This document shows positions 3,798-14,139 of a DNA stretch of 38,978 bases, piece after piece; within the stretch, counting starts at the first letter, position 1; every line of letters begins with the position of its first letter. This stretch comes from Gemmatimonadales bacterium (GTDB taxonomy: Bacteria; Gemmatimonadota; Gemmatimonadetes; Gemmatimonadales; GWC2-71-9). The DNA is taken from contig JACDBX010000097.1 in NCBI GenBank assembly GCA_013694695.1, positions 1-38,978 on the forward strand, given 5' to 3'. The notes under the pieces are model-generated. The model was not told the origin of the DNA and made no database searches. It was given only the letters and a program-made list of their open reading frames with translations. The position numbers and the translations under genes were made by a program.

Positions 3798-4546
3798 TCT
3801 CGCTCGCGGGCAAGCGCGTCCTGGTCACCGGCGGCTCGCGCGGCATCGGGCGGGCCGTCGCGTTGCTCTGTGCGCGGGCAGGCGCGGATGTCGGCGTGAC
3901 CTATCACACCCGGCGCGCGGATGCAGAGGTCGTGGCCCGCGAGATCCGGACCATGGGCCGCCGGGCGTATGTTGGCGGGGGCGACCTCTCGGACGCCAAC
4001 CGAGTTCACCAGCTCTTCGCCGAGGTGAAGGCGGCATTCGGTGGCCTCGACGGTTTCGTGGCCAACCACGGGGTGTGGCCGGTCGCCGAGACGCCGCTCA
4101 CATCGATGGCCCCGGAGCGGTGGCGGCAGACAATGCGCGTCAACCTCGACGGCATTTTCCACACGACGCGTGCCGCTCTCGGACTGATGGAGGCCGGTGG
4201 CAGGGTCGTCATGATCGGCAGCACGGCGGGCCAGCGTGGCGAGGCCTTTCACGCTGACTATGCAGCGACCAAGGGAGCGATCGGGGCTCTCGCGAAGAGC
4301 CTCGCGATCGAGTGCGCACCGCACATCACCGTCAACTGCGTGGCGCCCGGATGGGTCGACACCGAAATGTCAGCCGCTGCCTTCGAGGGCACCGAGCGTG
4401 CGCGGGTCGCATCGACGATCCCGCTGCAGCGGATCGCGACGGCGGAGGATATCGCCGGGCCGGTGCTCTTCCTGCTCTCCGATCTCGCCCGTCACGTGAC
4501 CGGCGAGATCCTCAACGTGAATGGCGGGAGCGTGCTGTGCGGATGA
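3794..4546 (+). CDS. Short-chain dehydrogenase/reductase (FabG-like SDR)
   Basis: NAD(P)-dependent oxidoreductase of the classical SDR family, 250 aa. Visible motifs are the Rossmann TGGSRGIG (12-19), NHG in place of the usual NAG (91-93), Asn117, and the catalytic Ser143, Tyr156 and Lys160 (DYAATKGAIGALAKSLAIE). The C-terminal GWVDTEM and NVNGGSVLCG match FabG-type enzymes. The GTG start at 3794 overlaps the gmhA stop as GTGA and gives a normal N-terminus (ISLAGKRVLVTGG); a longer frame reaching back into gmhA reads as the shadow of gmhA. The substrate is unknown: the coupling to a GmhA-like gene suggests a sugar or fatty-acyl role, and the housekeeping 3-oxoacyl-ACP reductase is also possible. 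Confidence 0.85.
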   Translation: MISLAGKRVLVTGGSRGIGRAVALLCARAGADVGVTYHTRRADAEVVAREIRTMGRRAYVGGGDLSDANRVHQLFAEVKAAFGGLDGFVANHGVWPVAETPLTSMAPERWRQTMRVNLDGIFHTTRAALGLMEAGGRVVMIGSTAGQRGEAFHADYAATKGAIGALAKSLAIECAPHITVNCVAPGWVDTEMSAAAFEGTERARVASTIPLQRIATAEDIAGPVLFLLSDLARHVTGEILNVNGGSVLCG

Positions 4547-11536: not shown

Positions 11537-12616
11537 ATGCGCATCCTCCAGCTCGCGAAGTACTACTGGCCGCGGTCCGGTGGCATGGAACGCGTGGTGC
11601 AGGGACTCGCCGAAACGATCGCAGAGCGCGGGCACGAGGTGGAGGTCGTCGCCGTCACGGCCTTTGGCGATCCGCGGCCGGGGCAGAAGCGCCGCGCGTC
11701 GGTGAAGCGGGCGTGGTCGTTTGCGCCGATGGGCAGCCAGGAACTCGCACCGGCGTACATCGCGGCGGCGTGGTCGCGCGCCGACGTGATTCACCTCCAT
11801 CACCCCCATTCGCTGGCCGATGTCGCGTACGCGTTCCGTCCATCGCTGGCGCCGCTGGTGGTGACCCAGCATGCCGACTATCCGAGCTTCCTCTACAAGC
11901 TCCCCGGGCGCTACGCCCTCCACCGGGCCGAAGCGATCATCGTCCCCAGTTTGGCACACATCGCGCTGTCTCGCGAGCTGAAGGGATTCGAGCACAAGGT
12001 GCACGTCATCCCGTTCGGCATCGATGAACGCCGCTGGGAGGTCGTGCCGCCACCGCCGCCAGGCAACCCGCCTCGCGCGCTGTTCATCGGACGGTTGGTG
12101 GCGTACAAGGGTCTCGACTTCCTCCTCCGCGCCCTCGAGCAGGTGCCGGAACTCCGGCTCGACATTGTGGGCACTGGGCCGGAGCGCAATCGCCTGGAGA
12201 CGCTCTCTCGCGCCCTCGCGATCTCCGATCGGGTGAAGTGGTGGGGCGAGTACCCCGACGCCGACCTGCCCCGGCGAATGGCGGACGCCGACTTCCTGGT
12301 GCTGCCCTCGGTGAGCGTCGAGGAGATGTTCGGCCTGGTGCTGCTCGAGGCGATGGCGGCCGGCCGACCGGTGATCACCACCGCCGTGCCGTCGGGGGTG
12401 CGCGAGGTGAACACCCACGGCGAGACAGGGCTCGAGGTACCGATTCGTGAGGTCGATGCGCTGGCTGCGGCGATGCGCGAACTCGCCAACAACGCCGAGC
12501 TTCGCGACCGGCTCGGCAGGGCAGGGAGGCAGCGCGTCCGCGACCGGTTCTCGCTCGACGCGATGACCACCGCACACCTTGAGCTGTACGCCAAGGTCCG
12601 AGGCCCGAAGAACTGA
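11537..12616 (+). CDS. Glycosyltransferase family 4 (GT-B fold)
   Basis: Retaining glycosyltransferase of 359 aa. The N-terminal Glyco_transf_4 domain begins MRILQLAKYYWPRSGGMERV, with the GGxE acceptor loop, and contains VIHLHHPHSLADV and VVTQHADYPS. The C-terminal domain has IPFGID (158-163), FIGRLVAYKGLDFLLRAL (183-200), VGTGPERNRLE (211-221) and the EX7E motif Glu263...Glu271 in EEMFGLVLLEAMAAGRPVI. It resembles rhamnosyl/mannosyl transferases of WbnK/PimB type more than the divergent neighbour at 10434-11498, so the two are not recent duplicates. The start is ATG 11537. The gene ends about 110 bp before the first tRNA, with no obvious terminator between. Confidence 0.88.
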   Translation: MRILQLAKYYWPRSGGMERVVQGLAETIAERGHEVEVVAVTAFGDPRPGQKRRASVKRAWSFAPMGSQELAPAYIAAAWSRADVIHLHHPHSLADVAYAFRPSLAPLVVTQHADYPSFLYKLPGRYALHRAEAIIVPSLAHIALSRELKGFEHKVHVIPFGIDERRWEVVPPPPPGNPPRALFIGRLVAYKGLDFLLRALEQVPELRLDIVGTGPERNRLETLSRALAISDRVKWWGEYPDADLPRRMADADFLVLPSVSVEEMFGLVLLEAMAAGRPVITTAVPSGVREVNTHGETGLEVPIREVDALAAAMRELANNAELRDRLGRAGRQRVRDRFSLDAMTTAHLELYAKVRGPKN

Positions 12617-12671
12617 TCGAGCACTGGATCAGGGGCGGAATCGACGGGGTGGGGGGTATACCAGTCTTCCG

Positions 12672-12680
12672 TGTGGAAAA
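12672..12680 (-). other. DnaA-box-like 9-mer (TTTTCCACA on minus strand)
   Basis: TGTGGAAAA on the plus strand equals TTTTCCACA on the minus strand and fits the relaxed DnaA-box consensus TTWTNCACA. It lies at the edge of an AT-rich stretch (about 12676-12729) and belongs with the two sites at 13110-13134. Binding is inference only. Confidence 0.35.
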
Positions 12681-12694
12681 ACAAGTTACTTTAA

Positions 12695-12723
12695 TTGACG
12701 ACTGTAGTGTGTTGTAATAAAAG
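12695..12723 (+). promoter_or_regulatory. Probable sigma-70 promoter of the anticodon-CAT tRNA
   Basis: A -35 TTGACG (12695-12700) and a -10 TAAAAG (12718-12723) are separated by 17 nt, inside an AT-rich island in otherwise GC-rich DNA. The -10 ends 6 nt before the tRNA 5' base at 12730, the spacing expected if transcription starts at or next to the mature end. An overlapping TAATAA at 12715-12720 is an alternative -10 with a short spacer. Confidence 0.55.
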
Positions 12724-12729
12724 AAGTTA

Positions 12730-12803
12730 GGCCCCGTAGCTCAGGTGGTTAGAGCAGCGGACTCATAATCTGAAGGTCGAGGGTTCGAACCCCTCCGGGG
12801 CCA
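12730..12803 (+). tRNA. tRNA with anticodon CAT, probably tRNA-Ile2 (lysidine type)
   Basis: 74 nt that fold as a full cloverleaf: acceptor GGCCCCG/CGGGGCC, D-arm GCTC...GAGC, anticodon loop CTCATAA (anticodon CAT), T-arm GAGGG-TTCGAAC-CCCTC and discriminator A. CCA is not encoded. The anticodon alone fits elongator Met or Ile2, whose C34 is changed to lysidine by TilS. The acceptor has C4-G69 and C5-G68, which are TilS identity pairs, and it resembles E. coli ileX (GGCCCC...), whereas E. coli elongator Met has T4-A69 and A5-T68. Pair 27-43 is G-A, a mismatch. Ile2 is favoured but not proven. An initiator is excluded, since 1-72 is paired and the GGG/CCC anticodon stem is absent. Confidence 0.9.
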
Positions 12804-12829
12804 TCGCGGGAAACTCGTTTTGGGGCCGC

Positions 12830-12858
12830 TTGTTTGGGCAGAGTGGAAATGGTATCAT
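12830..12858 (+). promoter_or_regulatory. Probable sigma-70 promoter of tRNA-Val
   Basis: TTGTTT (12830-12835) and TATCAT (12853-12858, one mismatch to TATAAT) are separated by exactly 17 nt. The -10 ends 18 nt before tRNA-Val, leaving a short leader for RNase P removal. A separate promoter suggests tRNA-Val is not only read through from the first tRNA. Confidence 0.5.
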
Positions 12859-12876
12859 CCCCACGCGATCAGTCGC

Positions 12877-12950
12877 GGGCGATTAGCTCAGTTGGTTAGA
12901 GCGCGCGCCTCACATGCGCGAGGTCGGGGGTTCGAGCCCCTCATCGCCCA
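12877..12950 (+). tRNA. tRNA-Val (anticodon CAC)
   Basis: 74 nt with all arms paired: acceptor GGGCGAT/ATCGCCC, D-arm GCTC...GAGC, anticodon stem CGCGC/GCGCG around the loop CTCACAT (anticodon CAC), T-arm GGGGG-TTCGAGC-CCCTC with one G-T pair, and discriminator A73. CCA is not encoded and must be added by the enzyme at 4565-5746. CAC reads GTG, a favoured valine codon in GC-rich genomes. Confidence 0.95.
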
Positions 12951-13036
12951 TCGGCCCGAACCATCCCGCTGGATGGCGTAGGGTCGCCGAGTCAGTCAGT
13001 GAGTGGAGCCTCCCGGGCTGGCTCGGAACGGGAAGA

Positions 13037-13075
13037 CACGATGGCCACGACCCCTTCGGAGTCGTGGCCATCGTG
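13037..13075. terminator. Strong hairpin, possible bidirectional terminator without a T-tract
   Basis: A perfect 15-bp inverted repeat, CACGATGGCCACGAC (13037-13051) with its complement at 13061-13075, encloses a 9-nt loop with CTTCGG, which can form a stable UUCG-type tip. It lies between tRNA-Val (plus) and the 3' end of hldA (minus), where both units must end. Neither side has a run of T residues, so Rho-independent action is uncertain; it may instead block readthrough or protect RNA 3' ends. Confidence 0.5.
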
Positions 13076-13109
13076 GTGTTACGGCGATCTGTCCCCACCG
13101 AATGTGCGT

Positions 13110-13134
13110 TGTGGATAATTACCCTTGTGGAAAA
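13110..13134 (-). other. Two DnaA-box-like 9-mers in tandem
   Basis: TGTGGATAA at 13110-13118 is the exact complement of the consensus DnaA box TTATCCACA. TGTGGAAAA at 13126-13134 (TTTTCCACA on the minus strand) fits the relaxed consensus. They have the same orientation, 7 nt apart, and end directly against the hldA stop codon. With the site at 12672 this makes three such sites in about 460 bp. Function is inference. Confidence 0.4.
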
Positions 13135-14139
13135 CTATTCGTCCCCCACGGCCTCATCCCACGCCAGCAGTACCTCGTCCGTCGCGACCGTCGCAGTCCC
13201 GCGTTTCCCGACTTTCACTCCTGCCGCCAGGTTCGCCAGCCACGCCGCTTCGCCGATCTCGGCCCCGGCCCCGAGTGCCGCGCCCAGCCACGCAGTCACG
13301 GTGTCTCCCGCTCCCGAGACGTCGAATACCTCACGCGCGTTGCTGGGGGTCCGCCGCAGGGCGGCCCCCGCCGAAATCAGCGCCATGCCGTCGGCGCCCA
13401 GGGTGAGCAGCATGTGGTCCACCGCGAGGCGCTCACGAGCTGCCGCGAGGTCGGCGTCGTCTCCCATGAAGTGGGTGCCGAACGCGGCCTCAAGTTCACG
13501 CCGGTTCGGCTTGAAGACAGTCGCGCCCGCGTAGTCGAAGAAATGCCGCCGTTTCGGGTCGACCACGATCGGCACGCCCTGCTCGGCGGCCGAATCGATG
13601 AGCGCACGGGCGAACATGGCGTCGATGACCCCCTTGTCGTAGTCCTCCACGACCACCACGTCGGCCTCGGCGATCGCGTGGTGCGCCGCGGCATGGAGAT
13701 CATCCCTGTGGCGATCGGGGACCGGGTTGGTGACTTCCCGGTCGATCCGGACGATCTGCTGGCCCTGCGCGACGATCCGGGTCTTGGTGGTCGTCGGCCG
13801 GCCGGTCACGGTGAGCAACCCCGAAGTCGCGATGGCGCGCGCGCCGAGCGCCTCGCGGAGCGCGTCTCCCGCACTGTCGTCGCCCACCACCGCCACCAGT
13901 TCTGCGGAGGCGCCGAGCGCCGCGATGTTGGCAGCGACGTTGCCGGCGCCGCCGGGAACGGCGACCTCCGATTCCATGGTGACCACCGGGACCGGCGCCT
14001 CCGGGGAGACCCGATCGGCATCACCGATCAGGTAGCGGTCGAGCATCGCATCGCCCACGACCACGACTTGGACATTGCGCATGGCTCCCAGGATCTCCAG
14101 GAGGCGGTCGCGGCTGAGCGGGGCGAGAATGTCGATCAT
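13135..14139 (-). CDS. hldA: D-glycero-beta-D-manno-heptose-7-phosphate kinase (HldA/RfaE domain I)
   Basis: PfkB-family kinase that phosphorylates heptose 7-phosphate at C1 on the way to ADP-heptose for LPS. Its 334 aa cover only the kinase domain; the bifunctional E. coli HldE has about 475 aa with a nucleotidyltransferase half, so the adenylyl-transfer step must be elsewhere. Motifs are VVVVGDAMLDRYLIGDADRVSPEAPVP split over 25-51, PGGAGNVAANIAALG (62-76), DYDKGVI (166-172), DPKRRHF and the catalytic GAGDT (276-280). The start at 14139 (ATG ATC GAC) has GGAG a few bases upstream. A longer frame to 14313 runs over the inverted repeat and into ansA and is rejected. Confidence 0.9.
   Translation of the reverse strand: MIDILAPLSRDRLLEILGAMRNVQVVVVGDAMLDRYLIGDADRVSPEAPVPVVTMESEVAVPGGAGNVAANIAALGASAELVAVVGDDSAGDALREALGARAIATSGLLTVTGRPTTTKTRIVAQGQQIVRIDREVTNPVPDRHRDDLHAAAHHAIAEADVVVVEDYDKGVIDAMFARALIDSAAEQGVPIVVDPKRRHFFDYAGATVFKPNRRELEAAFGTHFMGDDADLAAARERLAVDHMLLTLGADGMALISAGAALRRTPSNAREVFDVSGAGDTVTAWLGAALGAGAEIGEAAWLANLAAGVKVGKRGTATVATDEVLLAWDEAVGDE

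Follow-up and report, generated by a model that had tools for sequence, protein, structure and literature searches.

A conserved group of DnaA boxes around a two-tRNA operon in a Gemmatimonadota genus: a candidate DnaA control locus outside oriC

Three DnaA-box-like sites flank a small tRNA operon in a Gemmatimonadales bacterium. Their sites, their fixed orientation and their spacing recur across the genus, in which the same box also stands about 90 bp before dnaA. The window, meaning the whole stretch of DNA that was analysed (38,978 nucleotides, contig JACDBX010000097.1), holds an intergenic arrangement that can be compared with known DnaA-binding regions. The reading that we favour, with belief and doubt in about equal measure, is a chromosomal DnaA-binding control locus outside oriC, built around the two-tRNA operon and datA-like in part; we infer both its binding and its function from sequence. 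DnaA-box loci outside oriC are already known. What is new, judged against open-access papers, is that a tRNA operon has a direct pair of boxes beyond its terminator and one further box ahead of its promoter, and that this arrangement occurs in Gemmatimonadota.

The three boxes all read TTWTCCACA on the minus strand and span 463 bp. One of them (TTTTCCACA, 12672-12680) precedes the tRNA-Met(CAT) gene by 49 nt. The other two form a direct pair on the far side of the operon: the first member (TTTTCCACA, 13126-13134) starts at the base adjoining the stop codon of a kinase gene, and the second (TTATCCACA, 13110-13118) is placed 16 bp from it, start to start. These positions and their common orientation were given correctly in the first-pass annotation, as was the AT-rich stretch beside the first box; the AT content of the intergenic spacer is higher than that of the genome. 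That annotation had noticed no other match in the window, but a fourth TTWTNCACA is present (TTTTCCACA, 4155-4163, plus strand), within an open reading frame translating ...NLDGIFHTTRAALGLM..., which from its translation we take to be a short-chain dehydrogenase. The cluster had also been called unexpected in GC-rich DNA. The window holds four TTWTNCACA, against a mean of 0.15 in dinucleotide shuffles of the window. The genome scanned is a Gemmatimonadota MAG (G000) of 2,804,215 bases in 195 contigs. Over these 2.8 Mb, TTWTNCACA occurs 13 times and TTWTCCACA nine times, versus 22 and 13 for the respective reversed control patterns. Because the genome total is just nine, three TTWTCCACA within 463 bp are conspicuous. 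The genome-wide scan that had been proposed brought no second tight cluster to light: among the 13 matches, only the window trio sit within 500 bp of one another, and an intergenic region on contig C170 carries several looser boxes. Consensus boxes at a density far above the genome rate, together with conservation, are the general mark of a DnaA-box cluster outside oriC, and both are found here. Eight of the nine genomic TTWTCCACA are intergenic or at promoter positions, as called with a simple ORF and GC3 script and open reading frames rather than a gene caller, the remaining one being the site at 4155. Three of these eight belong to the window locus, one lies before dnaA, one is in the gap between an aldolase and a pyruvate kinase, and the other three stand before one gene each; going by their translations, these genes are presumably nrdJ (for a class II ribonucleotide reductase), prfC and the gene of a sigma factor.

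On the plus strand the locus reads, in order, as the stop codon of a glycosyltransferase, a ATACCCCC-type element, the first box, tRNA-Met, tRNA-Val, a structured trailer, a hairpin, the box pair and the kinase stop codon. The GT4-type glycosyltransferase gene (11537-12616, plus strand) lies upstream of the tRNA operon. The first tRNA (12730-12803, plus strand, anticodon CAT) is called Met by ARAGORN and matches the Rfam tRNA family; to our eye it resembles tRNA-Ile2. The second (12877-12950, plus strand) is a tRNA-Val (CAC) by ARAGORN and again an Rfam tRNA. A strong terminator-like hairpin with a weak T tract (13039-13073, z -6.0) separates the tRNA operon from the box pair, and a PfkB-family carbohydrate kinase gene, which we assume to be HldE/RfaE-like, converges with the operon from the other side (13135-14139, minus strand). 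Between tRNA-Val and the hairpin, segment 12951-13037 (plus strand) contains a core (GAGTCAGTCAG..GTGGAGCCTCCCGG..) that is near-identical in all ten genus copies and forms two stems on folding. The fold of 12951-13075 scores z -6.2, the hairpin supplying much of that score. No Rfam family matches segment 12951-13037 at gathering score. At a permissive threshold Rfam returned only sub-threshold matches, to sbcD, Scr3920 and others, which were taken as chance. The segment is a candidate small RNA or tRNA-operon trailer. The ATACCCCCCACCCC element on the minus strand at 12646-12659 (ATACCCCCNNCCCC) is likewise conserved at the locus: nine copies in the genus have it, as does a comparable locus of G065. 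In G000, G061, G066 and G067 it is also flanked by the -35- and -10-like hexamers of a gene with a heavy-metal domain; we take this gene to be CopZ-like (a copper chaperone) and the placement of the element to be like that of a CsoR-type operator.

Whether the motif is a DnaA box in this organism can be judged from the other places where it stands. Each of the ten genus genomes has a TTTTCCACA placed 86-94 bp before the point where its TIGR00362 DnaA match begins. In all nine displayed copies (L141-L149) it is flanked by TTTGAC on one side and by a hexamer resembling TAGAAT on the other (in one copy TAAACT), and this position within the apparent dnaA promoter suggests DnaA autoregulation. G000 and G064 share a TTWTCCACA placed before a gene that resembles class II ribonucleotide reductase (L007:2017 and L139:1788). 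Because TTTTCCACA precedes dnaA and TTWTCCACA lies upstream of the ribonucleotide-reductase-like gene, DnaA is the most likely reader of the motif, and TTTTCCACA is a credible DnaA box here. A second box-rich region occupies the gap that separates an aldolase-like gene from pyruvate kinase (seen at L008, L132, L133, L135 and L140). The gap is several hundred bp long, AT-richer, and contains 5-9 TCCACA cores (for example G000:C170:5650-6420). Its conserved inverted core, GTGGNNAAGTTTTCCAATCCACA, was found with up to two mismatches in 6/10 genus genomes and in 0/92 of the other family genomes searched. DnaA-like matches outside dnaA occur in nine of the ten genus genomes; in G000, a 654-aa protein on contig C179 (L009:739-2703, minus strand) has two DnaA-type AAA+ domains (PF00308 twice) and may act on DnaA as Hda does.

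The kinase is present in nine of the ten genus genomes, in ten copies (two in G055), while G065 has no kinase match; the relatives' proteins are 61-68% identical to that of the window. A direct box pair follows the kinase stop codon in 8/10 copies, always 15-17 bp start to start. Both boxes are perfect in five copies (G000, G061, G062, G063 and G067), the pair in G066 combines one perfect and one degenerate box, and in both copies of G055 the two boxes are degenerate (TTTTCAACA twice in one, TTCTCCACA with CTGTCCACA in the other). The direct pair is absent after the kinase stop codon in G035 and G064. On the other side of the operon, a box is found 47-49 nt upstream of tRNA-Met in five of the nine readable copies (G000, G061, G062, G066 and G067), degenerate in G061 and G066; G063 is left out of this count, its contig ending before tRNA-Met. 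A degenerate box is placed 28-29 nt upstream in G035, G055b and G064, and a box at 91 nt in G055a. In all, the relatives' copies carry one to five boxes or near-boxes each. The sequence of the spacers between the boxes varies widely among the copies. The relaxed box definitions used here (TTNTCMACA and wider) were picked after viewing the sequences; the strict TTWTCCACA counts are independent of them. The two kinase/tRNA loci of G055 (on C10 and C24) have diverged and both carry boxes, either as a true duplication or as two strains in one bin.

Since the spacer is AT-richer than the genome and the pair is missing in two copies, the sites could be box-like 9-mers arising by chance in AT-rich intergenic DNA. 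We consider this very improbable. In the spacers of nine copies (G035 omitted, the spacer ends being set by the conserved ATACCCC element), 16 TTWTCCACA are present, all 16 on the kinase strand, whereas 1000 dinucleotide shuffles of the spacers average 0.05 and never exceed 3. In the same spacers TTTTCCACA occurs 12 times, and the commonest of 300 letter-permuted 9-mers only 3 times. These figures are to be read with the relatedness of the genomes in mind, as the genus copies share a common ancestry and so are not independent trials. The recurrence of the positions in relatives also argues against chance. Another explanation, which we rate as rather unlikely, is that the main role of DnaA at this locus is to regulate transcription: through the upstream box, which keeps a fixed distance from the tRNA gene, it would repress or activate the tRNA operon and leave replication timing unaffected. 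The boxes at 47-49 nt before the tRNA in five readable copies and the degenerate ones at 28-29 nt in three more are consistent with this, and the boxes before dnaA and the class II RNR-like gene are at positions of the DnaA-regulon type. However, this would leave the pair beyond the terminator-like hairpin unexplained, and the promoter hexamers of the tRNA operon are indistinct. The pair might instead be a DnaA roadblock that halts transcription where the kinase gene and the tRNA operon converge. It does lie between the kinase stop codon and the hairpin, in constant orientation relative to the kinase, and DnaA near the asnC terminator has been reported to block RNA polymerase (work cited in PMC10950094). 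A strong hairpin is already present at this place, though, two genus copies lack the pair, and the third box would be left unexplained; we hold the roadblock to be improbable.

The remaining alternative is that the locus serves, or once served, as a replication origin; in its favour, DnaA boxes adjoin an AT-rich stretch. A remnant or secondary origin element was among the proposals of the first-pass annotation, whose observation that dnaA is not nearby is right: the window has none, and dnaA lies on another contig (C190). The gap between dnaA and dnaN is where the clear oriC candidate is found. In nine of nine genomes this gap contains a conserved GTCCACA-type box, then CCCTCTACTACTACTAC (on the other strand, repeated TAG), then AT-rich DNA, so that CTACTACTAC repeats (DnaA-trios) stand beside a DnaA box in every case. 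A DnaA box plus DnaA-trios is the layout of the basal unwinding system, as described in PMC8287927. At the window locus, DnaA-trios were not seen on inspection by eye. GC skew, which had been suggested as a check, gives the origin reading no support, there being no lasting sign switch at the homologous locus in G067 or G035. To the left of the homologous locus, G067 has negative skew over some 200 kb, and to the right the skew is mostly negative, with a weak positive stretch at 305-355 kb (40-90 kb away); in G035 both flanks have positive skew. Little weight can be put on skew in these genomes, because dnaA of G067 falls inside a positive-skew block, which begins about 135-170 kb away, and not at the block edge. 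A remnant is moreover a poor fit, since the sites have been retained although the DNA separating them has diverged. The window locus is thus probably not the origin, and we find the idea that it is one, or was one, hardly credible. The aldolase/pyruvate-kinase gap was also considered as oriC and rejected, as there is no lasting skew sign change there (G067 contig C1) and the DnaA-trios are at dnaA-dnaN. Two of the readings first offered, a datA-like titration site and a DnaA-regulated site, are still the leading candidates, and the conservation seen in the genus speaks further for them; the origin or remnant reading is disfavoured by the trios at dnaA-dnaN and by the skew.

In the DnaA control locus that we favour, DnaA would bind one box just upstream of the promoter region of the tRNA operon and two tandem boxes just beyond the terminator-like hairpin. 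By holding or inactivating DnaA, the locus would help to time initiation, like datA and the DnaA-box clusters of Bacillus subtilis. Transcription of the tRNA operon and DnaA binding would then affect each other, as does read-through from the tRNA-Gly operon at datA. Against this reading stand the absence of the pair in 2/10 copies and the degenerate boxes of the pair in 3/10, and three boxes are few for a titrating site. A bolder version is possible but doubtful in our estimate: the locus may be an independently evolved, datA-like replication-control locus wired into the tRNA operon, with DnaA on both sides sensing or limiting tRNA transcription, which in turn would set the amount of DnaA held.

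The closest comparison is with datA of Escherichia coli, a locus that promotes the hydrolysis of DnaA-ATP. As described in PMC10950094, datA follows the tRNA-Gly operon; transcription running on from the tRNA promoter works against the binding of IHF, and DnaA box 2 together with the operon terminator keeps this read-through low. Both loci are intergenic DnaA-box clusters outside oriC that come directly after a tRNA operon and the terminator of that operon (PMC10950094). However, datA has five boxes and the window copy three TTWTCCACA; the window locus has an extra box upstream of its operon, and the tRNAs and the neighbours are different. datA requires an IHF-binding site between its functional DnaA boxes; by a consensus scan, the IHF motif WATCARNNNNTTR is absent from eight of nine copies of the window-type locus, with one match in G055b. 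There is no sign of common descent between the two loci, and because the IHF consensus and the box number differ, the window locus should not be filed as datA. The B. subtilis DnaA-box clusters, the removal of all six of which is reported to cause early initiation (PMC5295017), are also groups of DnaA boxes outside oriC, and as a looser class they would suit the window locus; B. subtilis has six, whereas here there is one tight cluster plus the looser aldolase/pyruvate-kinase region. DARS1 and DARS2 of E. coli are described as non-coding DnaA-box loci that modulate DnaA (PMC4585315). The window locus resembles them in being non-coding DNA that carries DnaA boxes. The genus also resembles species with DnaA-controlled dnaA and nrd promoters, in having TTTTCCACA before dnaA and TTWTCCACA before the RNR-like gene (the latter in two genomes), but the window locus differs from such promoters in carrying a pair beyond the operon and not a promoter box alone.

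Beyond E. coli, B. subtilis and a handful of other bacteria, little is known about how initiation is controlled. Among open-access papers, going by titles and the opening of abstracts, we found none on DnaA, oriC or a DnaA box in Gemmatimonas, Gemmatimonadetes or Gemmatimonadota. The locus provides a small, testable candidate DnaA site in Gemmatimonadota, alongside an oriC candidate and the DnaA box before dnaA. If the coupling to tRNA is true, it would be a second, unrelated case after datA in which tRNA transcription and control of the initiator meet at one locus. If its independent origin is also true, the link between tRNA operons and DnaA boxes would be a recurrent design rather than a peculiarity of E. 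coli. Within the genomes searched, the arrangement is confined to this genus. At the kinase loci of the family outside the genus, TTWTNCACA was found in 0/24, looking about 1.5 kb to each side (less at contig ends, three short loci being left out). A phylum scan of 395 genomes, looking for two TTWTCCACA that point the same way with 5-9 bp between them, found such a pair in eight, the reversed control pattern giving 0. Five of the eight are members of the genus, all with the pair at the window-type locus; the other three (G328, G169 and G241) belong to other genera and have the pair at unrelated genes, one of them next to a recA-like gene.
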